Assembly: GCA_014163555.1 (NCBI GenBank)
Contig: JACJGO010000031.1
Location: 1-56,437 of the forward strand
Reading direction: 5' to 3'
DNA length: 56,437 nt
Source: Flavisolibacter longurius
Lineage (GTDB): Bacteria > Bacteroidota > Bacteroidia > Chitinophagales > Chitinophagaceae
This document shows, one piece after another, positions 2,201 to 16,635 of this stretch. The notes below the pieces were generated by a model. The model had not been told where the DNA came from and did not search any database. It worked only from the letters and a program-made list of their open reading frames with translations. How positions within the stretch are numbered: the stretch's first letter is position 1; every line of letters begins with the position of its first letter. The position numbers were made by a program, and so were the translations under genes.

Positions 2201-2285
2201 CGGAGAGAGAGGGATTCGAACCCCCGGACCTGTTACAGTCAACGGTTTTCAAGACCGCCGCATTCGACCGCTCTGCCATCTCTCC
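2201..2285 (-). tRNA. tRNA-Ser(UGA)
   Basis: On the minus strand the acceptor stem GGAGAGA pairs with TCTCTCC. The anticodon loop is CTTGAAA with anticodon TGA, there is a long variable arm typical of serine tRNAs, and a T-loop GGTTCGAATCC. CCA is not encoded. A perfect promoter TTTG-N19-TATATTTG ends 5 nt before the tRNA, so transcription should begin at or just before the mature 5' end. Its 3' end touches the recombinase remnant, matching the common use of tRNA genes as integration sites. Confidence 0.95.
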
Positions 2286-2398: not shown

Positions 2399-2833
2399 AT
2401 GAAAAAAGTGGCTGATATCCTCAACCGAAAAGGCCGCAACATCATCGCCGTTTCACCGGAAACGACCGTGATCGATGCCCTTCAACTGATGGCCGATAAA
2501 AACATTGGATCGGTGCTTGTACTGAAAGACGATAACTACATCGGGTTGATGACAGAACGCGATTACTCCCGCAAGGTGGTCCTCAAAGGAAAAGCATCCA
2601 ACGACACCCTGGTTTCGGATATCATGACCACCGATCTGCCGGCAGTGCACCCGTCCGACACCATCGAAAACTGCATGCAGCTGCTTTCGGAAAAGCATAT
2701 CCGCTACCTACCCGTATTTGAGCAGGACAAGATTGCCGGTATCATCTCCATCAACGACGTGGTAAAAGAGATCATTCTTTCCCAGGAAGAAACCATAAGC
2801 AACCTGAAAGATTACCTCTATTCCAACGCCTGA
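2399..2833 (+). CDS. CBS-domain pair protein
   Basis: A 144-residue soluble protein made almost entirely of two CBS domains (about residues 8-65 and 74-130). The first carries DALQLMADKNIGSVLVLKDD and LMTERDYSRK, the second ENCMQLLSEKHIRYLPV and ISINDVVKE. CBS pairs bind adenine nucleotides and usually regulate other proteins; stand-alone versions like this are common in Bacteroidota and have no assigned target. The gene converges on mutS2 with only 2 nt between the stop codons and no terminator between them, so the 3' ends of the two transcripts probably overlap. The ATG directly follows an AT-rich spacer after tRNA-Ser. Confidence 0.85.
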   Translation: MKKVADILNRKGRNIIAVSPETTVIDALQLMADKNIGSVLVLKDDNYIGLMTERDYSRKVVLKGKASNDTLVSDIMTTDLPAVHPSDTIENCMQLLSEKHIRYLPVFEQDKIAGIISINDVVKEIILSQEETISNLKDYLYSNA

Positions 2834-6152: not shown

Positions 6153-7040
6153 ATGAAAAAGATTGCTGTTATAGGAGCCGGCACCATGGGTAACGGGATT
6201 GCCCACGTTTTTGCCCAGGCCGGGTTTGCCGTATCGCTGGTTGATGTCTCCCAACCGCAACTGGACAAAGCGCTTTCCACCATCGCCAAAAACTTCGACC
6301 GCCAGATTTCCAAAGGAACGTTGGCCCTGGAAGGAAAAGAATCAGCCCTAAAAAATATTACCCCGCATACGTCTATGGAAGCCGGGGTTTCCGACGCCGA
6401 CTTAGTAGTGGAAGCCGCTACCGAAAACATTCAATTAAAGCTTTCCATCTTTCAACAACTCGACCAGTTTGCCCCAAAGGATTGCATTCTGGCATCCAAT
6501 ACATCTTCCATTTCCATTACAAAAATTGCTGCTGCCACTGCACGACCTGAAAAGGTTATCGGCATGCATTTCATGAATCCTGTGCCGGTAATGAAACTGG
6601 TAGAGATTATTAACGGTTATGCCACCACGCCAGACGTTACGGAAAAGATCGTGGCGCTGAGCCGGCAGCTTGGCAAAGTTCCCTGTACAGTAAATGACTA
6701 CCCCGGATTTATTGCCAACCGCATTCTTATGCCCATGATCAATGAAGCCATTTATTCACTTTATGAAGGAGTGGCCGGTGTAGAAGAAATTGACACGGTT
6801 ATGAAACTTGGTATGGCTCACCCTATGGGGCCTTTGCAGCTGGCTGATTTTATCGGCCTCGATGTTTGCCTGAGTATCCTGAACGTATTGCACGAAGGTT
6901 TTGGCAATCCAAAATATGCGCCCTGTCCCCTGTTGGTGAATATGGTGACCGCCAAAAAATTGGGAGTAAAAAGCGGCGAAGGGTTTTATACCTACTCGCC
7001 GGGAAGCAAAGACCTGGTTGTGAGTTCACGTTTTCAATAA
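6153..7040 (+). CDS. 3-hydroxyacyl-CoA (3-hydroxybutyryl-CoA) dehydrogenase
   Basis: A 295-residue cytoplasmic NAD(P)-dependent oxidoreductase that interconverts 3-hydroxyacyl-CoA and 3-oxoacyl-CoA, in fatty acid, butanoate or related degradation. The N-terminal Rossmann fold opens with IAVIGAGTMGNGIAHVFAQAGF. The signatures SNTSSISIT, GMHFMNPVPVMKLVEII and the PGFIANR hinge are present, and the C-terminal domain carries MKLGMAHPMGPLQLADFIGLD. The length fits the single-function Hbd/PaaH type rather than a FadB fusion. The frame is open back to a TTG at 6132, but that codon lies inside the promoter box, so I use the ATG at 6153. It stands alone, and a shared hairpin separates it from the convergent aromatic operon. 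Confidence 0.93.
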   Translation: MKKIAVIGAGTMGNGIAHVFAQAGFAVSLVDVSQPQLDKALSTIAKNFDRQISKGTLALEGKESALKNITPHTSMEAGVSDADLVVEAATENIQLKLSIFQQLDQFAPKDCILASNTSSISITKIAAATARPEKVIGMHFMNPVPVMKLVEIINGYATTPDVTEKIVALSRQLGKVPCTVNDYPGFIANRILMPMINEAIYSLYEGVAGVEEIDTVMKLGMAHPMGPLQLADFIGLDVCLSILNVLHEGFGNPKYAPCPLLVNMVTAKKLGVKSGEGFYTYSPGSKDLVVSSRFQ

Positions 7041-7044
7041 AAGA

Positions 7045-7068
7045 AAAAGCCTCTGTTCAGAGGCTTTT
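7045..7068. terminator. Bidirectional terminator between dehydrogenase gene and aromatic operon
   Basis: AAAAGCCTCT and AGAGGCTTTT form a 10-bp stem with a GTTC loop. A-tract and T-tract flank both sides, so it can serve the plus gene and the minus operon. Confidence 0.85.
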
Positions 7069-7085
7069 ATCTTATACGTACAATT

Positions 7086-7382
7086 TTATTGAAACTTTTC
7101 TGTCTTTTCGCTTCCGGTGATGGGCCCCTGGCTGCGGATCTGGATTTGTAAACTGGTGATCCATTCGGCGCAGCCATTTTGAACAAGGTGTTCGTTGACC
7201 CTGTGTATAACCTCCATTACTTCTGCATACCTTCCTTCCAGGGTGGTGGCAAACGGCCCCACCTCGTGTTTGATCCCTGACTGTTGAATGATGGCAATGG
7301 CTTCATCCACCCAGTCATAAGGATGCCGGTCCTGCACAATGGGCAGAAGCTGAATGGAAGCATTGATGGTATAATCGTGCAT
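7086..7382 (-). CDS. Thiamine-binding-like (DUF77/MTH1187) protein, last gene of aromatic operon
   Basis: A 98-residue protein of the DUF77 / MTH1187-YkoF-like family, small ferredoxin-like proteins, some of which bind thiamine or hydroxymethylpyrimidine. Recognisable pieces are the INASIQLLPI first strand, VDEAIAIIQQSG, VGPFATTLEG and VMEVIHRVNEHL. Its ATG overlaps the aroC stop by one base (TGATG), so it is translationally coupled to chorismate synthase and is the last gene of the operon. Nothing in the family explains a role in aromatic synthesis, so the link may only be positional. A shared hairpin terminator lies 17 nt downstream. Confidence 0.8.
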   Translation of the reverse strand: MHDYTINASIQLLPIVQDRHPYDWVDEAIAIIQQSGIKHEVGPFATTLEGRYAEVMEVIHRVNEHLVQNGCAEWITSLQIQIRSQGPITGSEKTEKFQ

Positions 7383-8374
7383 CAGAGGGTTCGTTTTATT
7401 TGTTGTTCCAAAAGAAGAAAATCAGCCAACACCAAGGCCGTCACAGCCTCCAATACGGGTGGCACCCGCAGGGCAATGCAAAGATCATGACGACCTTTTA
7501 CGGAGAAGGCTTCCACCTGCTGGCTTTCCCAGTTCCAGCTTTGTTGTTCTTTAGGCGTGGAAGAAGTGGGCTTGATGGCCACACGGAAAACGAGTTCGTT
7601 GCCATTGCTGATGCCACCCACCACACCGCCGGCGTGATTGGTAGCAGTCATTCCGCTTCCGTCTGTAATCGCATCATTGTGATCGGCACCAAACATACGG
7701 GCAGCGGCAAAACCGGTTCCAAACTCAATACCCCTTACTGCCGGAATAGAGAACACGGCATGCGCAAGCACCGATTCCAACGAATCGAAAAAAGGCTCAC
7801 CCAAACCTGCCGGCAGTCCGGAAACACGACATTCAACGATGCCGCCAACGGAATCCTTTTGTTCGATGGCTTTTTGCAGGCCGGCCTCGATGTCCTTTTC
7901 ACCTCCAATTTCTAAAATGGTTGATTGGACCGAAATGTTCCGGAGCAGCTTTTTTGCCACCACGCCGGCACCTACCAGGCACACGGTCAGGCGTCCACTA
8001 AAGTGTCCCCCACCCCTGTAATCTTCAAAACCCGCAAACTTCTGGTGCGCTACAAAATCGGCATGGCCGGGCCGAGGGAAAGCCCGCTGTTTTTCATAAT
8101 CGCCGGAACGGGTGTTTTTATTTTCAAATAAGATCGTCAGCGGAGCACCGGTGGTTTTGCCGTAAAATACACCGGTTACAAAAATGGGCCGATCGTCTTC
8201 CTTCCGGGGAGTGGTTCCTTTTTGCATTCCGCCTTTGCGGCGTTCAATATCGGTGGTAAAATCTTCTTCTGCAAGGGTCAATCCGGCCGGGCAACCGTCA
8301 ATAGAAATGCCCACCGAAGGCCCGTGCGACTCGCCAAAGATGCTTACACGAAAAATGCGTCCAAATGAATTCAT
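7382..8374 (-). CDS. aroC: Chorismate synthase
   Basis: A 330-residue FMN-dependent enzyme for the last step of the shikimate pathway (EPSP to chorismate). Signatures present: FGESHGPSVGISIDGCPAG, RRKGGMQKGTTPRKEDD, ENKNTRSGDY, RPGHADF, and DYRGGGHFSGRLT, in which the active-site His and Arg region lies. The conserved C-terminal segment with GISNGNELVFRVAIKPTSS is also present. It is slightly shorter than the usual 350-390 residues, but all core motifs are there. It lies 36 nt downstream of aroA and overlaps the next gene by one base. Confidence 0.96.
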   Translation of the reverse strand: MNSFGRIFRVSIFGESHGPSVGISIDGCPAGLTLAEEDFTTDIERRKGGMQKGTTPRKEDDRPIFVTGVFYGKTTGAPLTILFENKNTRSGDYEKQRAFPRPGHADFVAHQKFAGFEDYRGGGHFSGRLTVCLVGAGVVAKKLLRNISVQSTILEIGGEKDIEAGLQKAIEQKDSVGGIVECRVSGLPAGLGEPFFDSLESVLAHAVFSIPAVRGIEFGTGFAAARMFGADHNDAITDGSGMTATNHAGGVVGGISNGNELVFRVAIKPTSSTPKEQQSWNWESQQVEAFSVKGRHDLCIALRVPPVLEAVTALVLADFLLLEQQIKRTL

Positions 8375-8410
8375 GCCTTTCTTTTATCAATAATAATTTT
8401 CGATCCTGTT

Positions 8411-9679
8411 TTACACAACTTCTGAAAACGTCTGCAGGTGTTCCCAGAACTGCGGGTAGGATTTGTTGACAGCTTCCGCTTCTTCAATAATAACTTCCCC
8501 TTCTGCACTCAGGGCAGCTACTGCACAAGCCATGGCAATGCGATGGTCATGGCGGGAATGCACCTGAGCACCTCTTACCCCTTCCCCACCTATTATCAGC
8601 ATCAGGTCATCCTGGAAAGTGATGGTCACACCCATCTTTCCAAATTCTTCCTGCAGGGTCAGGGCTCGGTTGCTCTCTTTATGAGTCAGGCGATGTACAC
8701 CTTCAATCACGGAAGTGCCATCACAATAAGCAGCAAGGGCTACCAGCGGTGGAAACAGATCAGGACAATCCGTAGCATTAAAATGAAACGGCTTCAACTT
8801 GCTTTTCCTTACATGAATCTGTGTTTCTTCAATGCTGATAGTGGCGCCACATTGCATCAGGGCTTGCAGGATGGCTTTATCAGCCTGCGTGGAAAATACA
8901 TCCAACCCTTTCACAACCAAATCACCAGCAACCGCACCGGCAACCAGCAAAAATGCACCTCCGCTCCAGTCGCCTTCCACAGTATAAGAAAACGATTCTC
9001 CTTTATCCGTTTTGTTGTCCTGCGCTGGAAAATAAAACGATTGGTAATTGTTGTTTTGAGGGATGGTAAGGCCAAAGTCTTTCATAACCTGGAGGGTCAG
9101 GTCGATATAAGGCTTGCTGTTTAAGTTATCTACCGTGATCGTTACATCACTGGCTTTAGCGGCAGTAAATGCAAACAACAAGCCGGTCAGGAACTGCGAA
9201 GAAAGCGATCCGTCCACGGTAATGTTTTGCGGCACTAGCGGACCTTTAATATGCAGCGGAAGCAAACCTTCCTGGCTCCTGCATTCCACTCCCAATTGGG
9301 GAAGTGTTTCCGTAAAAAAAGAAAACGGACGTTTGCGGAGGCTGCCACTACCGGTTACCTGTATGGGTGTTTGGCTAAGCGCTGCAATCGATGTGAACAT
9401 CCGTGCCGAAAGCCCGCTTTCACCGCAATCGATCGTATCATTGACCGGATTTACGCCACGGCTTTCGATGACTATAGTTTGATCCTCCTTGGTAACAAGT
9501 GCACCCAGTTGGGTAATGATATCAAGAGCAGCATTGTCGTCGTTGGAAATACCGGGATTTTGTAAAATTGTTTTGCCACCCCGCAACAGGGCAGCTGCAC
9601 AGGCCCGCTGCATAGCACTCTTGGAAGCTGGCGCTGTAATGATTCCGTTAACTTTTGAGGGAGAAACTGTAACCTGCAT
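8411..9679 (-). CDS. aroA: 3-phosphoshikimate 1-carboxyvinyltransferase (EPSP synthase)
   Basis: A 422-residue enzyme that joins phosphoenolpyruvate to shikimate-3-phosphate. Visible features: PASKSAMQRACAAALL near the N-terminus (substrate-binding Lys-Ser and Arg), DCGESGLSARMFTSIAAL, GSGSLRKRPF, SSQFLTGLLFA, the GDWSGGAFLLVAGAV strand, NATDCPDLFPPLVALAAYC, and DHRIAMACAVAALSAEGEV near the end. It overlaps aroB by one base (both share 9679), so the pair is translationally coupled. The product passes directly to AroC, encoded next in the operon. Confidence 0.96.
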   Translation of the reverse strand: MQVTVSPSKVNGIITAPASKSAMQRACAAALLRGGKTILQNPGISNDDNAALDIITQLGALVTKEDQTIVIESRGVNPVNDTIDCGESGLSARMFTSIAALSQTPIQVTGSGSLRKRPFSFFTETLPQLGVECRSQEGLLPLHIKGPLVPQNITVDGSLSSQFLTGLLFAFTAAKASDVTITVDNLNSKPYIDLTLQVMKDFGLTIPQNNNYQSFYFPAQDNKTDKGESFSYTVEGDWSGGAFLLVAGAVAGDLVVKGLDVFSTQADKAILQALMQCGATISIEETQIHVRKSKLKPFHFNATDCPDLFPPLVALAAYCDGTSVIEGVHRLTHKESNRALTLQEEFGKMGVTITFQDDLMLIIGGEGVRGAQVHSRHDHRIAMACAVAALSAEGEVIIEEAEAVNKSYPQFWEHLQTFSEVV

Positions 9680-10689
9680 TACATGTGTTTAAAGATTTCC
9701 TGCAATGGTATTTTTTTGACAACGGCTTTGCCGATCTTTTCAAGAAGAACAAAATTCATCTGTTCCCCTTCCCGCTTTTTATCACTCACCAAAACATCAA
9801 ACACTTTTTGTTTGTTGTAGCCGGCGGTGATGGGTAAGCCATAGTTATCGATGATCTGCACAAGTTTATCGCTGCCTTTGAACTGCAAAAACTCAGCGGA
9901 TAACCGGGAGGCAAATACCATCCCTACGGCCACTGCTTCGCCATGCATCAGGCTATATTGCTTTTCTACGGCATGGCCTAGGGTATGACCGAAATTGAGC
10001 AAACGGCGCCTGTCCCTTTCAAACTCGTCTTCCTTAACCACTTTTGCTTTCAGCAGTGCATTTCGCATCACCAGTTTTTGAAGGGCGGGCTTGTTCGTTT
10101 GAAAAAAGGAGAGCTTTTTTTTATCCAGTTCCTTGTACATCGCACCATCCAGGATGGCGGCATGCTTGATGATCTCGGCAAACCCATTTCGCCATTCATT
10201 CTCGGGCAACGTTTTCAGCAGGCTGACATCGTACAAAAGGAACTGCGGCTGATTGATGGTGCCAACCATGTTTTTGTACAGGCCTACATCAATGCCATTT
10301 TTTCCACCAATGGCAGCATCCACCATCGCCAGAATGGTTGTGGGGACAAACCCAAAGGAAATACCACGCAAATAAATGGAAGCCACATAGCCGGTTATAT
10401 CGGTCACCACACCACCCCCTACACCCACAAGCGTCCATGTGCGGTCTGCATGCAGGGCAATCAGTTGCTGGATGATGGTATCAACCGTTGTCTGGACCTT
10501 GAATTCTTCGCCGGCATTGATCACGATGGTTTTCCAATCCTTGAACAATTTGGGATGGGCAGCCGCTAAATGACTGTCGGTGATAACAACGGTTGTTTCC
10601 GGGGAAACAATTTTTTTCAGTTGTGCAAACGAAGAATCGAAATAAAAAGCGGTTGCACTCCTGCTGAACTGAATTTTTTTTACCTGCAT
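9679..10689 (-). CDS. aroB: 3-dehydroquinate synthase
   Basis: A 336-residue NAD- and metal-dependent enzyme that converts DAHP to 3-dehydroquinate, the second shikimate step. Signatures: VGVGGGVVTDITGYVASIYLRG (NAD binding), PTTILAMVDAAIGGKNGID, LPENEWRNGFAEIIKHAAI, and the metal ligands in NFGHTLGHAVEK and LMHGEAVAVGM. It shares one base with the DAHP synthase gene upstream and one with aroA downstream. The genes for the following steps (aroD/aroQ, aroE, aroK) are not in this window and must lie elsewhere. Confidence 0.96.
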   Translation of the reverse strand: MQVKKIQFSRSATAFYFDSSFAQLKKIVSPETTVVITDSHLAAAHPKLFKDWKTIVINAGEEFKVQTTVDTIIQQLIALHADRTWTLVGVGGGVVTDITGYVASIYLRGISFGFVPTTILAMVDAAIGGKNGIDVGLYKNMVGTINQPQFLLYDVSLLKTLPENEWRNGFAEIIKHAAILDGAMYKELDKKKLSFFQTNKPALQKLVMRNALLKAKVVKEDEFERDRRRLLNFGHTLGHAVEKQYSLMHGEAVAVGMVFASRLSAEFLQFKGSDKLVQIIDNYGLPITAGYNKQKVFDVLVSDKKREGEQMNFVLLEKIGKAVVKKIPLQEIFKHM

Positions 10690-11774
10690 CAGCCGTTAAA
10701 TACTTTGTTTTGGCGATTGATACTTTCCATATGCACCGCGTCAAGGTACCTGGTAACAAACTCACGGCTCAGGCCCATCTTATCGCCTTTTTTGCAGGCA
10801 CGTTCCAGGATCTCGTTCCAGCGGCGGGTTTGCAAAATGGTAATGTTGTTTTCTTTTTTGTACTGCCCAATCTTCTCAGCAACTTTCATACGTTCCGATA
10901 AAAGAAGCATCAATTCATCATCCAGTTGGTTGATCTGCTGGCGAAGCTTTTCGAGTGTTGCATGAAATTCAGCAGAGGCAATGTCTTCCCGCAACCACAC
11001 CATCTCTCCCAGCATCTCTGCCAATTTTTCGGGTGTGATCTGCTGCTTGGCATCACTCCAGGCATTGTCGGGATCAATATGGCTTTCGATCATCAGTCCA
11101 TCAAAATCAAGATTGATGGCTTCCTGCGCCACTTCCTGTAAAATATCCCGGCGGCCGCAGATATGCGAAGGATCGTTCACGATCAGCATATCCGGGTTGC
11201 GGCGCTTCATTTCGATAGCCAGATGCCACATCGGGGCATTGCGGTATTCAGTATTGCCGTAAGAAGAGAATCCACGATGGATCAAACCAATTTGGTTGAT
11301 GCCGGCTTTGGCCACACGTTCTACTGCGCCGGTCCATAATTCCAGGTCGGGATTGATGGGGTTTTTAATGAGAACGGGTACATCCACACCCCGTAATGCA
11401 TCGGCCACTTCCTGTACACTGAAAGGGTTCACAGTGGTACGGGCACCAATCCACAGAACGTCCACATCAAAATGCAAAGCGTCTTCCACCTGCTTGGCGG
11501 TAGCCACTTCCACGGCAATGGGTAATCCCGTAACCCGTTTGGCCTGTTGCAGCCAGGGCAGGCCCTTGGTACCAATGCCTTCAAAACTACCCGGACGTGT
11601 ACGTGGCTTCCATATACCGGCCCGCAACATATTTACCTTACCAGTTGCGGCCAGGCGGGTAGCAGTTTCCAAAACCTGCTCTTCGGTTTCGGCGCTGCAG
11701 GGACCGGAAATGATTAGCGGACGTTTTTTCCAAACTTCCTGCACGGCAGATTTTTGGTCTTTCACTTTTTCCAT
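10689..11774 (-). CDS. Bifunctional DAHP synthase / chorismate mutase
   Basis: A 361-residue two-domain protein. Residues about 15-260 are a type I-beta (KDO8P-like) DAHP synthase with RPLIISGPCSAE, MLRAGIWKPRTRPGSFEG, VLIKNPINPDLELW, GLIHRGFSSYG and NDPSHICGRRD. Residues about 270-355 are an AroQ-type chorismate mutase (LRQQINQLDDELMLLLSERM, EKIGQYKKEN). It catalyses pathway entry and the branch toward prephenate, which is the substrate of TyrA and PheA encoded upstream. Such a mutase domain can also serve as a feedback sensor for prephenate; that is family knowledge, not visible here. A 113-bp spacer with inverted repeats separates it from tyrA. Confidence 0.95.
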   Translation of the reverse strand: MEKVKDQKSAVQEVWKKRPLIISGPCSAETEEQVLETATRLAATGKVNMLRAGIWKPRTRPGSFEGIGTKGLPWLQQAKRVTGLPIAVEVATAKQVEDALHFDVDVLWIGARTTVNPFSVQEVADALRGVDVPVLIKNPINPDLELWTGAVERVAKAGINQIGLIHRGFSSYGNTEYRNAPMWHLAIEMKRRNPDMLIVNDPSHICGRRDILQEVAQEAINLDFDGLMIESHIDPDNAWSDAKQQITPEKLAEMLGEMVWLREDIASAEFHATLEKLRQQINQLDDELMLLLSERMKVAEKIGQYKKENNITILQTRRWNEILERACKKGDKMGLSREFVTRYLDAVHMESINRQNKVFNG

Positions 11775-11795
11775 TGTTGTAAGTTTTAATTTTTA

Positions 11796-11881
11796 GTGAA
11801 ACGTGAGACGCTAAACGTGAAACGGAAGAGACCTTGACTTTGGAGTAAACTCCCATTTCACGTCTCACCTTTGACGTTTCA
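11796..11881. repeat. Inverted-repeat cluster inside the aromatic operon
   Basis: GTGAGACG (11803-11810) pairs with CGTCTCAC (11861-11868). TGAAACG (11797-11803) pairs with CGTTTCA (11875-11881). CGTGAAA (11815-11821) pairs with TTTCACG (11856-11862). This is the only large gap in the otherwise tightly packed operon. It may be an mRNA processing or stabilising element, or an inserted dispersed repeat. Confidence 0.55.
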
Positions 11882-11887
11882 TCATTC

Positions 11888-12727
11888 TCACTTAATAATT
11901 CGTTTTATTTTATTTGCCTGCTCGATCAAGTCGGTCAGGTAATCATAATTTTCTTTTTCCAAACAAGCCTTGAACTTTCGCAACTGGCTGATGTGTTCAT
12001 TCAAAACATCCAAGACATTTTCGCGGTTTTCTTTAAAGATGGGTACCCACATGGCCGGGTTGCTTTTGGCCAGTCGCACCGTGCTTTCAAAACCACCACT
12101 CGCCAGTTCAAAAATGGCCTCTTCTTCTTTTTCTTTTTCCAGTACTGTATTGGCAAGTGCAAAGGACGTTATGTGCGAAATATGGCTTACATAGGCTACA
12201 TGAACGTCGTGGTCTTCGGCATTCATGTACACCAGGTGCATGCCCAGCACTTTATAAATATTTTCCACCATCTCCAGCGCATCAGCGTCGGTTTCTTCTT
12301 TGTTGCAGATAACCGTTGCTTTGGAGATGAAAGCGCTTTTCACGGCAGCTTCCGGACCGCTGTATTCTGTTCCCCACATGGGGTGCGTGGCAACAAAACG
12401 TCCCCGCTTTGGATGGTCTTTGATCAGATTCAGAATCGCACTTTTGGTTGACCCGGCATCCATTACCACCTGCTTGTCCAAGATGTCTAAAATAAACAAC
12501 ACCACTTCCTGTATTGCATTCACAGGGATAGCAAGAATCACCAAATCAGAGCTAATAACTGCATCCGGCAAGTCCATAATTTCATCCACCAAACCGAGTT
12601 CCAACGCCTTGTGCTGGTGTGCTACATTATTGTCAACCCCAATGATCCTTGTTGCCACAGCTTTTTCCTTCAGGGTTAAGGCCATGGAACCACCGATTAA
12701 ACCGACACCAACAATCGTAACAATCAT
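11888..12727 (-). CDS. tyrA: Prephenate dehydrogenase
   Basis: A 279-residue NAD(P)-dependent enzyme of the tyrosine branch (prephenate to 4-hydroxyphenylpyruvate). The N-terminal Rossmann fold opens with VTIVGVGLIGGSMALTLKEK. It also has VMDAGSTKSAIL, FVATHPMWGTEYSGPEAAV (the conserved His of the HPM motif) and YVSHISHITSFALAN. The C-terminal helical domain is complete. No chorismate mutase or ACT domain is fused; the mutase comes from the next gene. Its start overlaps the aminotransferase stop by 4 nt. Confidence 0.95.
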   Translation of the reverse strand: MIVTIVGVGLIGGSMALTLKEKAVATRIIGVDNNVAHQHKALELGLVDEIMDLPDAVISSDLVILAIPVNAIQEVVLFILDILDKQVVMDAGSTKSAILNLIKDHPKRGRFVATHPMWGTEYSGPEAAVKSAFISKATVICNKEETDADALEMVENIYKVLGMHLVYMNAEDHDVHVAYVSHISHITSFALANTVLEKEKEEEAIFELASGGFESTVRLAKSNPAMWVPIFKENRENVLDVLNEHISQLRKFKACLEKENYDYLTDLIEQANKIKRIIK

Positions 12728-13899
12728 GCTTGAGGGTTTTGCCTTGCTTTTTTAATTCTGTTAATGGCAGCCTGTAGGTTTTCTTCCGTACTGCATAAAC
12801 TAACGCGTATATACCCGTTACCTTCCGTTCCAAAGATGCCTCCCGGCGTAATAAACACCCGTGCACCGTACAGCACGTCATCACTCACGGCATAACCATC
12901 TTTCGCCGCTTGCGGAACACGGGCCCAAACAAACAAACCAACTTGTTCCCTGCTATACTGGCAATCCAAAAGATCAAGCAGTTCAAATACTTTTTCGCGG
13001 CGCTTTTTATAGTGTGCGTTGAGCTGCTCATGCCAGTCACCATTCAGTGATAAGGCTTTGGTGGCTGCCAGTTGCAAAGGCAAAAACATACCGCTGTCCA
13101 TATTGCTTTTAAAGCGCATCACTTCGTTGATGCGTTCTTTATCGCCACAAAGCATGCCTACCCGCCATCCGGCCATGTTGTGCGATTTGCTCAGCGAATT
13201 CAGTTCCACCGCCACATCCAGGGCGCCATCCACCGACAAAAGACTCGTTGGCGATTCGTTCAGGATAAAGCTATAAGGGTTATCGTGGCAGATAAGAATA
13301 CTGTGTTTCTTTCCGAAGGCTACCAGTTTTTCAAAAAGCTTTTTGGAAGCTTTCTGCCCGGTGGGCATGTGTGGATAGTTCACCCACATCAGCTTTACGT
13401 TGCTAAGGTCTTCCTTTTCCAAGGCATCAAAATCGGGTGCCCAGGCATTTTGCTCTTTAAGGTGGTAATAGCGGGGACGGCCACCCGAAAGCTTTACAGC
13501 ACTGGAATAGGTGGGATAGCCTGGATTAGGTACCAGCGCTTCGTCTCCTTCATTGAGATAGGTCATGCAGATATGCATAATGCCTTCTTTGGAACCGATT
13601 AACGGAAGGATCTCCGAATTTGGATCCAGAGTAACACCATACCATTTTTTGTACCATGTCGCCATGGCTTCCCGCAGGGCAGCCGCGCCTTTGTAGCTTT
13701 GGTAAGCATGCACATTGGGCCGTGCGGATTCTGACCGGAGCATGTCAATCACCATAGCATCCGGCGCCATATCAGGACTGCCGATACCCAGGTTAATAAC
13801 CGTCTCCCCTTCTTTGTTCATGGTTTCTATCTCCCGCAATTTTTGCGAGAAATAGTATTCGCCGATTCCGTTTAATCTGTTAGCTACCTCTAGTTTCAT
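12724..13899 (-). CDS. PLP aminotransferase, probably for aromatic amino acids
   Basis: A 391-residue class I/II aminotransferase. It has NLGIGSPDMAPD, GSKEGIMHICMTYL, NPGYPTYSSAVKLSGG, WVNYPHMPTGQKAS, the CHDNPYSF region and the PLP-binding lysine in SLSKSHNMAGWRVGML. Its position between pheA and tyrA, with 4-nt overlaps on both sides, argues that it transaminates phenylpyruvate and 4-hydroxyphenylpyruvate to Phe and Tyr, or prephenate to arogenate. The sequence belongs to a broad family that includes LL-diaminopimelate-type enzymes, so the substrate is inferred from context rather than motifs. Confidence 0.88.
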   Translation of the reverse strand: MKLEVANRLNGIGEYYFSQKLREIETMNKEGETVINLGIGSPDMAPDAMVIDMLRSESARPNVHAYQSYKGAAALREAMATWYKKWYGVTLDPNSEILPLIGSKEGIMHICMTYLNEGDEALVPNPGYPTYSSAVKLSGGRPRYYHLKEQNAWAPDFDALEKEDLSNVKLMWVNYPHMPTGQKASKKLFEKLVAFGKKHSILICHDNPYSFILNESPTSLLSVDGALDVAVELNSLSKSHNMAGWRVGMLCGDKERINEVMRFKSNMDSGMFLPLQLAATKALSLNGDWHEQLNAHYKKRREKVFELLDLLDCQYSREQVGLFVWARVPQAAKDGYAVSDDVLYGARVFITPGGIFGTEGNGYIRVSLCSTEENLQAAINRIKKARQNPQA

Positions 13900-14726
13900 T
13901 TGGAAGGATTTGCATTTCCATTTTTATATACACCGTACACTTTAACGCTTTCGGTTACCGGTTCAATCTCTTTTATTACAGCCTGCAACTGCGGCAACGA
14001 ATCAAATTCAAGGTCTGCATGAAAATTATATCGCCATGCATTGCTGGGAATGGGAAAGCTTTGCAGCTTGCTGAGGTTAATGCCGCCTTCAGCAATCTTG
14101 GTTAACACACGGGCCAGGCTTCCGCGGGAATGATCGGTATGAAAGGAAAGCGAAGCTTTGTCCGCATCCGGTTGTTCGGCCGCTTTTTTCTGCAGGATCA
14201 GGAACCGGGTATAATTGTTTTTCTCAGTGTGAATATTTTCTGCAGCCATTTCCAGCCCGAAAAGTTCTGCAGCCAGCTTACCGGCTACCCCTGCAATGTG
14301 TTTGCTCTTCCGTTGGTGAATGTGTTTTGCACTCAGGGCGGTGTCTTCTGTTTCCACCAGCTTCCAGTTGTATTGCGAAAGAAAATCGATACACTGCAGG
14401 ATGGCCATGGGATGCGAATGCACTTCTTTGATGTCTTCGAGCTTCACACCCGGGTTTACCAACAGGTGCTGTCGGATGGGCAGGTACACTTCACCGGCGA
14501 TGGAAAGACCGGATTTGTGCAGAAGATTATAATTAGCCAAAATGCTGCCGGCAATGGAATTTTCAATTGCCATCACGCTAGCATCTGTCTCCCCTTTTTT
14601 AGTAGTGTCTACCACATCGCGAAAGGTGGCACAGGGCAATATGCCAATGTCGTTTCCAAAAAACTGCCGGGCGGCTATCTGGTGAAAACTTCCTTCAAAG
14701 CCCTGTATGGATACTAAGTTTGCCAT
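13896..14726 (-). CDS. pheA: Prephenate dehydratase
   Basis: A 276-residue enzyme converting prephenate to phenylpyruvate. Residues about 4-180 are the dehydratase domain (IQGFEGSFHQIAARQFFG, DASVMAIENSIAGSI, VHSHPMAILQC and the conserved TRF in NNYTRFLIL). Residues about 195-270 form a C-terminal ACT domain (HTDHSRGSLARVLTKIAEGG, INLSKLQSFPIPSNAW) that would bind phenylalanine for feedback inhibition. It has no chorismate mutase domain. It is the first structural gene of the aromatic operon. Its ATG sits only 6 nt after the T-run of the attenuator terminator, so initiation depends on readthrough of that hairpin. Confidence 0.96.
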   Translation of the reverse strand: MANLVSIQGFEGSFHQIAARQFFGNDIGILPCATFRDVVDTTKKGETDASVMAIENSIAGSILANYNLLHKSGLSIAGEVYLPIRQHLLVNPGVKLEDIKEVHSHPMAILQCIDFLSQYNWKLVETEDTALSAKHIHQRKSKHIAGVAGKLAAELFGLEMAAENIHTEKNNYTRFLILQKKAAEQPDADKASLSFHTDHSRGSLARVLTKIAEGGINLSKLQSFPIPSNAWRYNFHADLEFDSLPQLQAVIKEIEPVTESVKVYGVYKNGNANPSK

Positions 14727-14732
14727 TTACAT

Positions 14733-14863
14733 AAAAAAATCCCGGCTTTTGGCCGGGATCTCTATTGTTGAATTAACTTGTTTAAACGCTTTCAACAAAA
14801 GCAATCCCGGCTCTTACCAAAATAAAAGTAAAAATAGAAGCCGCGATAGGTTGTTGCTTTTGT
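14733..14863 (-). promoter_or_regulatory. Transcription attenuator of the aromatic operon
   Basis: All coordinates are read on the minus strand. Pairing 1:2 is ACAAAAGCAA (14863-14854) with TTGCTTTTGT (14804-14795), 10 bp. Pairing 2:3 is GCCGGGAT (14811-14804) with ATCCCGGC (14759-14752), plus TTGTTGAA (14798-14791) with TTCAACAA (14772-14765), 16 bp in all around a 5x5 internal loop. Pairing 3:4 is ATCCCGGC (14759-14752) with GCCGGGAT (14746-14739), 8 bp followed by a T-run, a strong terminator. The three pairings exclude one another as in classical ribosome-mediated attenuation. A ribosome stalled on the aromatic codons (14839-14819) would block segment 1, freeing 2 to pair with 3 and preventing termination. 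Confidence 0.88.
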
Positions 14864-14866
14864 CAT
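14792..14866 (-). CDS. Phe/Tyr-rich leader peptide of the aromatic operon
   Basis: A 24-codon reading frame upstream of pheA encodes MTKATTYRGFYFYFYFGKSR followed by DCFC and TGA. Seven consecutive residues (10-16) alternate Phe and Tyr, with a further Tyr at 7 and Phe at 23; that is far beyond chance. The frame lies between a perfect promoter and the terminator hairpin, and its start and stop regions form arms of the competing RNA structures. The ATG is only about 5 nt from the predicted transcription start. Its job should be to sense charged tRNA-Phe and tRNA-Tyr, not to make a functional product. Confidence 0.88.
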   Translation of the reverse strand: MTKATTYRGFYFYFYFGKSRDCFC

Positions 14867-14874
14867 TCTGTTTA

Positions 14875-14905
14875 CAAATATAAAAGGGCAGTGTTCAGAA
14901 ACAAA
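14875..14905 (-). promoter_or_regulatory. Promoter of the aromatic operon
   Basis: TATATTTG (14882-14875) with TTTG (14905-14902) exactly 19 bp upstream on the minus strand. Both boxes are perfect. The predicted start near 14871 lies about 5 nt before the leader-peptide ATG. Confidence 0.82.
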
Positions 14906-14964
14906 TTATTTTTTTGCTTTTTAATATGATAGCCAACAGGAGCCTTTTGCCTGCAAATCCGCTC

Positions 14965-16635
14965 CTAGCGCCGAACAGAGTCAGCTTCGTTCATGCGTAT
15001 CCGACGGCCTTTGTACTTTTTACCATCAATGGCCTGCATCATTTTATTAGATGCGCCTTTGTCGATTTCGATCCAACTATTCATCTCTTTCATATCGATC
15101 CTTCCCAAAACATCTTTTGGAAGATCGCTCATATCCAGAATAAACTGAAGGAAGCTGGCCTTGTAAAAACCGTCTTTTGTACCCAAGTTTACAAAGAGCC
15201 TTGTCATGTTACCACTGCTACTGTACTCACGGCCACGGGTTTCCCTGCGCCTGTCGGTGCCACGGTCACCGCCACGGTCTGAACCTCTTTCAAAGCGAGT
15301 TTCCCTTTCGCGAACATTCAGGTCTTCGGCATTTTCGTAGTATTTTAGAAAACGGTCAAACTCCAGTGCCGCTACGCGTTTCAGCACTTCCTCCTTGGTT
15401 ACTTCGGCAAACTTTTCGGAGAGGATGGGCATATAGGCTTCGTAATCGCCATGGCTGATGTCAGCAGACAATAACTTATCCATGAAATAAAAAAACTGCT
15501 TGCGGCAAACATCCTTTCCGGAAGGCACTTCCAGTTTGTGAAACTGAACCTGCGCCATGCGTTCAATATCGCGGATGCGGCGTACTTCACGAGTATGCAC
15601 AATCGAAATGCAGACGCCAGTCTTGCCGGCACGGCCTGTACGGCCACTGCGGTGCGTATACACTTCCATGTCATCGGGCAGTTCAAAGTTGATGACGTGT
15701 GTAATGCCCGACACGTCAATACCTCGTGCTGCCACATCGGTTGCAATAAGGAGTTGAAGGGTTTTGTCCCGGAATTCATCCATCACCTTATTACGCTGCT
15801 GCTGGCTTAGGTCACCGTGCAGCGCTTCAATATCGTAACCTTCGCGGGTAAGTTTTTCCGTGATCTCCTGCGCATCGGCCTTGGTACGGGTAAATATGAT
15901 GCCATACATACCTGGATTAAAATCAATCAGCCGCTTCAGCACTTCGTAACGGTGCTGGGCCTGCGTAACCACAAACTGGTGGTCGATGTTTTTACTGGCC
16001 GTATTTTTTTTACCAACGGTGATTTCTACCGGCTCTTTCATATACCGCTTGCTCACACCACGAATCTCCGGGGGCATCGTGGCACTGAACAGCCAGGTGC
16101 TTTCCCGCTTTGGTGTATTCTGCAAAATGGTTTCAATATCTTCCTGGAAACCCATGTTGAGCATTTCATCGGCTTCGTCCAGCACCACGTAGCTGATCTC
16201 TTCCAGGTTGATGGCTTTACGTTCGATCAGATCAATCAAACGGCCCGGCGTGGCCACAACAATTTGCACACCGCGACGAATGTCCCGGATCTGCTGCGAG
16301 ATGGAAGTGCCGCCGTAGACCGCAACCAGATGTATGCCTTTTGAATGTTTTTTGAAATTTTCGACTTCGTTTACGATCTGCATGCAGAGCTCCCGGGTGG
16401 GACAGATCACCAATGCCTGTGGGTATTTTTTAGACGTATCGATCAGTTGAAGTAACGGCAAGCCAAAGGCTGCGGTCTTACCAGTTCCGGTTTGGGCCAG
16501 GCCAATAAAATCCTTGGTTCCGGAAAGCAATACCGGGATTGCTTTTTCCTGTATGGTGGTGGGCTCTGTAAATCCAAGCTCCTCAACAGAAGCTAAAAGC
16601 TGCTCATTCAGCCCCAGTTCACTAAATAATGCCAT
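14965..16635 (-). CDS. DEAD-box RNA helicase with DbpA-type RNA-binding domain
   Basis: A 556-residue ATP-dependent RNA helicase of the DeaD/CsdA group. Helicase motifs in order: Q motif (ELGFTEPTTIQEKAIPVLL), Walker A AQTGTGKTAAF, PTRELCMQI, TPGRLIDLI, DEAD in VLDEADEMLNMGF, SATMPPEI, then the second RecA domain with ARGIDVSGITHVINFELP and HRSGRTGRAG. An Arg/Gly/Asp-rich linker (about 440-475) leads to a C-terminal DbpA-like RRM (about 480-550, RLFVNLGTKDGFY and GRIDMKEMNSWIEI). Such enzymes act in ribosome assembly and cold adaptation. A TACCTTTG box lies 13 nt before the ATG, giving a leader of about 10 nt. Confidence 0.94.
   Translation of the reverse strand: MALFSELGLNEQLLASVEELGFTEPTTIQEKAIPVLLSGTKDFIGLAQTGTGKTAAFGLPLLQLIDTSKKYPQALVICPTRELCMQIVNEVENFKKHSKGIHLVAVYGGTSISQQIRDIRRGVQIVVATPGRLIDLIERKAINLEEISYVVLDEADEMLNMGFQEDIETILQNTPKRESTWLFSATMPPEIRGVSKRYMKEPVEITVGKKNTASKNIDHQFVVTQAQHRYEVLKRLIDFNPGMYGIIFTRTKADAQEITEKLTREGYDIEALHGDLSQQQRNKVMDEFRDKTLQLLIATDVAARGIDVSGITHVINFELPDDMEVYTHRSGRTGRAGKTGVCISIVHTREVRRIRDIERMAQVQFHKLEVPSGKDVCRKQFFYFMDKLLSADISHGDYEAYMPILSEKFAEVTKEEVLKRVAALEFDRFLKYYENAEDLNVRERETRFERGSDRGGDRGTDRRRETRGREYSSSGNMTRLFVNLGTKDGFYKASFLQFILDMSDLPKDVLGRIDMKEMNSWIEIDKGASNKMMQAIDGKKYKGRRIRMNEADSVRR

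Follow-up and report, generated by a model that had tools for sequence, protein, structure and literature searches.

In the pheA and trp operons of enteric bacteria, transcription attenuation depends on a leader ORF carrying codons for the end product, on RNA segments that can pair as 1:2, 2:3 or 3:4, and on a terminator located before the first gene. The leader preceding pheA of Flavisolibacter longurius, found in the window (the whole stretch of DNA analysed, 56,437 nucleotides), likewise has an ORF rich in end-product codons, overlapping 1:2, 2:3 and 3:4 pairings and a terminator before the first gene, but differs in having a mixed Phe/Tyr run, in preceding a joint Phe/Tyr/shikimate operon and in an ATG that should lie near the 5' end of the RNA. 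Membership in the Rfam family Phe_leader (RF01859) was rejected, the score being 16.2 bits (E 2.7) against a gathering threshold of 55. Vitreschak 2004 reportedly mentions Bacteroidetes/Chlorobi. According to Naville and Gautheret 2010 no leader peptide system was known beyond Proteobacteria and Actinobacteria before the Firmicutes case of these authors, ermC aside (PMC2965389), and in B. thetaiotaomicron sORFs reminiscent of leader peptides have been described (PMC7366714).

For F. psychrophilum "strong clues" of leader-peptide attenuation before amino-acid operons have been reported, and both pheA and hisG are preceded there by conserved 5' elements, that of pheA being conserved in Flavobacteriaceae (PMC9723704). 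These elements are from the same phylum, precede the same genes, are suggested to act by attenuation and belong to no Rfam family (PMC9723704). The initial annotation knew of no described Phe/Tyr leader of this kind in the group, and this has to be modified since attenuation and a pheA 5' element are reported in Flavobacteriaceae, while the detail given below was not found in the available part of that paper. An attenuator ORF at the extreme 5' end of the RNA is known from trpL of S. meliloti, which is leaderless, the RNA starting with the ATG, and which is for Trp only (PMC7298713), unlike the window leader with its mixed run and a putative start 1–6 nt before the ATG. Aromatic uORFs before shikimate genes, as here, are uORFC-13-1 of Acholeplasma aroF, which is reported to have at least one Phe codon and is described from Acholeplasma and environmental sequences only (PMC8632094), and a pair of uORFs of shikimate genes that contain both F and Y (PMC6429828).

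The operon downstream of the leader is located on the minus strand and consists of seven genes, mostly overlapping or closely spaced. These are pheA, encoding prephenate dehydratase (13896–14726; PF00800, E 3.5e-57), a gene for a class I/II aminotransferase (12724–13899; PF00155), tyrA for prephenate dehydrogenase (11888–12727; NF006307 above cut-off), a gene for a DAHP synthase with a chorismate mutase domain (10689–11774; PF00793 and PF01817), aroB (9679–10689; TIGR01357 above cut-off), aroA (8411–9679; TIGR01356 above cut-off) and aroC (7382–8374; TIGR00033 above cut-off). The widest spacing within the operon, the 113 nt that separate tyrA from the gene for DAHP synthase, contains no TAnnTTTG box, and all seven genes are probably co-transcribed. 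A possible operon terminator was detected downstream of aroC by a consensus scan (7045–7068, minus strand), but the scan of 7000–15000 gave 11 sites with 10.0 expected, so this site is weak alone. The initial annotation had counted eight genes as tuned by the leader, a number to be corrected to seven, with the terminator-like site following aroC. Relatives of the aminotransferase gene and tyrA are present in the pheA locus, irrespective of order and strand, in 78 of the 80 named loci of the comparison described below. Elsewhere in the window a recombinase-like ORF, named by eye, is found at 1078–2298 on the plus strand; its 3' end overlaps a tRNA gene (2201–2285, minus strand), possibly marking the edge of a mobile element.

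The region upstream of pheA that contains the leader and its promoter extends over 14727–14905 on the minus strand. A TTTG at 14902–14905, which we take to be the Bacteroidota -33 element by its consensus, is separated by a spacer of 19 nt from the box TATATTTG at 14875–14882, which matches TAnnTTTG. A box of this type would occupy about -11 to -4 relative to the transcription start, and transcription should thus begin at about 14871, giving a 5'UTR of about 1–6 nt, with translation of the leader starting a few bases from the end of the RNA. The TAnnTTTG consensus is stated in PMC9723704. Of 104 pheA loci compared, 75 have a TAnnTTTG box that ends 3–10 nt 5' of the leader ATG, with 1.2 expected and a peak at 7; here the last ATG ahead of the F/Y run was taken as the leader start and two of 106 loci without a usable ATG were dropped. 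5'UTRs below 10 nt make up about 3.7% in B. thetaiotaomicron (PMC7366714) and leaderless mRNAs 5.5% in F. psychrophilum (PMC9723704). The ribosomes of Bacteroidota reportedly do not recognise Shine-Dalgarno sequences (PMC9976891).

The leader ORF, MTKATTYRGFYFYFYFGKSRDCFC, comprises 24 codons and a stop (14792–14866, minus strand), with the sensor codons FYFYFYF as codons 10–16 (14819–14839). The core of segment 1, CAAAAGCAA (14854–14862), pairs with 14796–14804 of segment 2 (14792–14814), which extends to the leader stop codon and can pair with either segment 1 or segment 3. Segment 3 (14750–14770) forms an antiterminator with segment 2 or a terminator with segment 4, and the terminator hairpin (14733–14762) has an 11-bp stem of 14752–14762 with 14736–14746, followed by a T-run of seven T (14733–14739), the first T residues of which are used in the outer four pairs. 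The T-run ends 6 nt before the ATG of pheA, and the distance from the leader stop to pheA is 65 nt. In the window copy the whole 1:2 duplex has -21.5 kcal/mol (p 0.020), the 2:3 duplex -26.3 kcal/mol (p 0.005) and the 3:4 duplex -17.2 kcal/mol, and the whole leader is more stable than all of 200 shuffles (z -5.28).

Most of these features had been pointed out in the initial annotation and are retained, namely a promoter before the leader, now seen to be a Bacteroidota-type TTTG, 19-nt spacer and TATATTTG, the 24-codon frame with FYFYFYF upstream of pheA, the overlapping 1:2, 2:3 and 3:4 pairings and the T-run hairpin ending 6 nt before pheA. The span given for the element, 14733–14882, is correctly placed but stops six bases short of pheA at one end and does not reach the -33 element at the other, and the distance of about 5 nt between transcription start and ATG is a predicted one, deduced from the position of the -7 box.

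We interpret the element as a ribosome-mediated transcription attenuator sensing charged Phe-tRNA and Tyr-tRNA, with a probability of roughly 0.93. Leader translation, stalling and termination, which are deduced from sequence, would proceed as follows. Translation would begin within a few bases of the RNA end, and when charged Phe- or Tyr-tRNA is scarce the ribosome would stall in the FYFYFYF run, leaving segment 2 free to pair with segment 3, so that no terminator forms and transcription continues through pheA into the six genes that follow. When both charged tRNAs are plentiful the ribosome would pass the run and cover segment 2, the 3:4 hairpin would form and transcription would end ahead of pheA. 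This is the logic of the pheA/trp type that the initial annotation had proposed, and it is supported by the conserved run and stems, by the swap test and by covariation.

The comparison comprised 110 pheA loci, 30 from a search of 58 genomes (33 with a match) and 80 named loci; the identical upstream regions of L015 and L078 are both counted. An upstream ORF with at least six F/Y in eight codons is present in 104 of the 110, against 0.65 in dinucleotide shuffles, and of 2310 control stretches taken from other parts of these loci 14 contain such an ORF. When the cut-off is lowered to four F/Y per eight codons a short upstream ORF is found in 106 loci, but this means little alone because shuffles give 32.75. 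In L027, L029 and L100 pheA is present and no F/Y-rich upstream leader was found, and the sequence of the fourth locus without one, L030, begins within an apparent leader. The aromatic run, the conservation of which had been named at the outset as decisive, is thus conserved. After 20 of the 105 loci with a complete terminator had been removed as at least 80% alike, 85 remained, and 83 of these leaders have at least two F and at least two Y near the run, with W also present in 14. Because the leaders were picked by their F/Y content, comparing frames inside the run is subject to bias, which does not affect the controls by shuffling and by stretches elsewhere. That one leader senses both Phe and Tyr, as first suggested, is backed by these mixed leaders and by the shift from Phe to Tyr in genomes without pheA described below.

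A small functional protein acting in trans, with the hairpin as the ordinary terminator of a small gene, would also agree with an upstream F/Y ORF in 106 of 110 loci, and a trans-acting leader peptide does exist, peTrpL of S. meliloti (PMC7298713). We nevertheless consider this explanation very unlikely. The GGG of segment 2 is in leader frame 2, 1 and 0 in 38, 23 and 17 of 78 leaders (seven of the 85 were left out, having no GGG match), and the tail after the run is accordingly read in all three frames across species while the RNA is conserved, indicating that it is the RNA that is kept after the run and not the peptide tail. Furthermore, the pairing between segments 2 and 3 is species-specific, and the run has turned to Tyr in three genomes in which no pheA was found.

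A hairpin with a T-run is located before pheA in 105 of 106 leaders; the hairpin of L062 has no good T-run, and this locus was left out of terminator-based counts. The 2:3 duplex beats shuffles at p≤0.05 in 102 of the 105 remaining loci, the exceptions being L023, L068 and L074, and at p≤0.01 in 76, and it covers at least half of the 5' arm of the terminator in all 105. The 1:2 duplex reaches p≤0.05 in 57 of 105. Conservation of the competing stems in relatives, the second point that the initial annotation had considered critical, is thus found for 2:3 and for the 3:4 hairpin, and the three-stem scheme is weaker with respect to 1:2. In a swap test on the 85 loci the own partners paired better than swapped ones, with a z of -10.4 for 2:3 and -20.9 for 3:4, none of 20000 permutations matching the own pairs in either case. 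Of 30 loci with an unusual arm, 18 had an own 2:3 partner that was better than the median swapped one, and 27 an own 3:4 partner of which this was true. On an alignment (A1) built from sequence alone, 94.8% of the cells are paired for 3:4 with both-side changes in eight of nine pairs, and 75.5% for 2:3 with both-side changes in 12 of 14 pairs, counts that may be inflated because the loci are related; versions of 2:3 slid along the alignment have 9–12 pairs changed on both sides, yet at most 46.4% of cells paired. RNAalifold on the alignment of relatives predicts 3:4 alone and no 2:3. In one locus, L024 (G030), the core reads GGCGGGA / TCCCGCC, segment 2 and both terminator arms having changed in concert, which makes this a clear case of triple covariation.

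The register of the stems follows the end of the F/Y run. Segment 2 starts at a median of 7 nt past the run (5–95% range 4–10). When transcripts ending at segment 3 were folded with a masked ribosome footprint for the 85 loci, the mean probability of segment 3 pairing with upstream sequence was 0.82–0.88 as long as the A-site had not reached the last F/Y codon, 0.63 when it was at that codon, and 0.41, 0.28 and 0.24 with the A-site one, two and three codons past it. With the A-site at the stop codon the mean is 0.57, probably because the ribosome in longer leaders is already beyond the GC core, and the mean over the run exceeds the stop-codon value in 66 of 85 loci. Before segment 4 is made and with no ribosome present, the antiterminator has a median likelihood of 0.86, so 1:2 should be no guarantee of termination. 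In full-length folds of the window copy the terminator probability is 0.01–0.09 for the A-site at codons 1–12 and 0.99–1.0 from codon 13 to the stop, and 0.91 without a ribosome; the switch at codon 13 lies within the run (10–16), and stalls at codons 13–16 would therefore still terminate. In 68 of the 85 loci full-length folds with the ribosome at the first aromatic codon give a terminator probability above 0.5, and in 73 the mean over the run exceeds this value, so the terminator is favoured in most relatives despite a ribosome in the run and folding order must decide there. Full-length equilibrium folding did not serve as family-wide proof of switching; among six copies considered individually it works in the window copy and partly in L097.

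A terminator with an alternative stem would suit any attenuator, and the element could in principle be governed by another RNA sensor, such as a T-box, a protein-bound attenuator or a riboswitch, the ORF being incidental. That the stem register tracks the end of the F/Y run makes this highly improbable, and no Rfam family, T-box and other cis-regulators included, reaches its gathering score at the window leader, at the leaders of eight relatives or at three trpE leaders. A permissive Rfam scan gave scores far under the cut-off of each family, and, judged by eye, strong conservation of blocks in the alignment does not go beyond start codon, coding run and stems. The Bacteroid-trp motif (RF01692), a cis-regulatory motif of Bacteroidetes named for trp (PMC2864571), has no match in the window, in the eight pheA relatives or in the trpE loci L275, L276 and L280. 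Translational coupling or reinitiation in place of termination has been proposed between leaders and genes, with a peak gap of 11–14 bp in Bacteroidetes (PMC4833913), but is scarcely credible here, as the gap from the stop to pheA is 65 nt, and 50–291 nt over 106 loci, and a strong terminator with a T-run lies between leader and pheA in 105 of these 106. An incidental ORF or a plain terminator was rejected on the basis of the significance of 2:3, the swap test and the enrichment of F/Y ORFs.

The covariance model R1, whose 85 building sequences include the second copies of L022 and L097, finds one element in the F. longurius genome. With E≤0.01 as the limit, 24 of 38 genomes, F. longurius among them, have a match, some of the weaker ones being plain terminators by eye. 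In L148 an Rfam Flavo-1 RNA (2434–2511, plus strand, 78.6 bits) is located about 225 bases from an R1 match at 2053–2209 and outside the leader. In three genomes, G002, G009 and G016 (completeness 90, 85 and 92%), no pheA was found and an attenuator element is located immediately 5' of the aminotransferase gene (L365, L367 and L369 respectively). Their leaders read MSLFKAYRWYYSYFYCTIVPG, MNNKAYRWYYYFVMEPGSLCSYSI and MIARNAYSWHYSYYFLREPGSL. Near the run F/(F+Y) is 0.17–0.20 in these, against 0.33–1.0 in the 85 leaders with pheA; each has one W and has kept one F near the run. In a quick HisG+TrpE tree G016 is sister to the pheA-bearing G011 (support 1.000), the next branch to this pair is G009 (0.999) and G002 is apart (0.918), which implies three losses of pheA if it was never regained; G035, of another family, is nested in this part of the tree, so its deep branches are doubtful. 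The shift of codons from Phe to Tyr fits what would be predicted of a sensor for the operon's own products, in what are few cases.

All 31 of the Chitinophaga-type loci studied (L022 and L181–L209, from 30 of 45 genomes of a genus that is probably Chitinophaga, and L097 from Chitinophaga japonensis) have a tandem arrangement, with two aromatic leaders, both followed by a terminator of their own, about 50–400 nt 5' of pheA. The 2:3 duplex is significant in 30 of 31 first and in all 31 second leaders, and R1 matches both copies in G022, L181 and L190. An exact -7 box is located 18–26 nt before the first leader in 22 of the 31 loci, and no exact box (only exact ones being counted) occurs within 34 nt of the second in any of them, so both leaders are probably on one transcript. 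Among Hymenobacter-type loci (L099 from Hymenobacter mucosus, and L164 and L210–L239 from a genus that is probably Hymenobacter, 10 of whose 41 matching genomes are outside this set) 21 of 32 are tandem and 11 single, with 2:3 significant in 7 of 21 first, 14 of 21 second and 2 of 11 single leaders; by eye the single leaders are like the one that comes first in tandem loci. A tandem arrangement is also present in L028, which belongs to another family of the same order and has a second 2:3 that is not significant. Tandem attenuators sensing ATP and proline are known from mgtCBR of Salmonella (PMC3641672), which also has two serial leader ORFs before one operon, both being aromatic-rich in the Chitinophaga type. 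Among the papers listed for tandem or double attenuators, those on gene attenuation concern, by title and the start of the abstract, mgtCBR and antibiotic-resistance leaders, e.g. ermB and msrD, and in a search that mostly did not extend to subscription papers no tandem Phe/Tyr attenuators in series were found.

Similar leaders precede other amino-acid operons. A His leader is present at 15 of 17 hisG loci, with a terminator in 14 of the 15 and an exact box 7–11 nt before the chosen ATG in 14, and trp leaders were found at all 14 trpE loci, with no exact box and a one-mismatch box near the ATG in 13; because ATGs with a box were preferred as starts, these distances lean toward the reading of a short 5'UTR. 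L287–L290, weak partial trpE matches, were dropped. In F. longurius the hisG leader (L260, contig C43) is MNKNVHIHHHALPNG and is His-rich, and the trpE leader (L280, contig C15) is M(K)MISNKFWWWHTNSFGVL and is Trp-rich, both having a terminator and a promoter-like box near the start. Leaders of ilvD and homoserine dehydrogenase genes were not found, a result that carries no weight as ilvD regions on the minus strand were scanned in the wrong orientation and the thr regions were guessed. Aromatic leaders occur in genomes at the level of the class too, an ORF with at least five F/Y/W in eight codons being present in 25 of 42 distinct loci listed, a few of which are weak matches. Two phylum-level loci and three from the family of F. 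longurius are counted among the 42, and a negative means little for loci that had no BLAST anchor and were located by position. No such ORF was found in the 30 best-scoring phylum-level pheA loci (L111–L140; 258 genomes with PF00800), and the element is thus not universal in the phylum but limited to a part of it.

Taken as a whole, the comparison points to a real, strongly conserved and classical Phe/Tyr attenuator in Chitinophagaceae and in parts of the class. As far as the literature was searched, the detail, the putative near-leaderless start, the stacked form and the codon shift without pheA appear to be new, with hints at the level of the phylum in print; no paper on attenuation with a leader peptide in Chitinophaga, on a 5'UTR of about 1–6 nt at such leaders or on codon content tracking gene content was found within a coverage from which subscription papers were mostly absent. 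We lean somewhat toward the view that there is a house style of the Bacteroidota, in which leader ORFs for Phe/Tyr, His and Trp start at most about six bases from the RNA end, ribosomes that do not use Shine-Dalgarno pairing load as soon as the 5' end is exposed, the choice of sensor codons goes with the genes that the operon contains, Phe codons being lost together with pheA, and Chitinophaga- and Hymenobacter-type genomes stack two Phe/Tyr attenuators on one transcript. If so, both stacked attenuators would have to be passed, which may make the response to this one signal steeper or tighter. For a phylum in which control of this kind has been mentioned in print but, in the literature found, not described, the element would be a detailed example of attenuation with wide conservation. 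The near-leaderless start raises the question of how initiation is timed relative to the RNA polymerase, the series of two attenuators that of what is gained from the second, and the natural absence of pheA that of how sensor codons evolve with the pathway.
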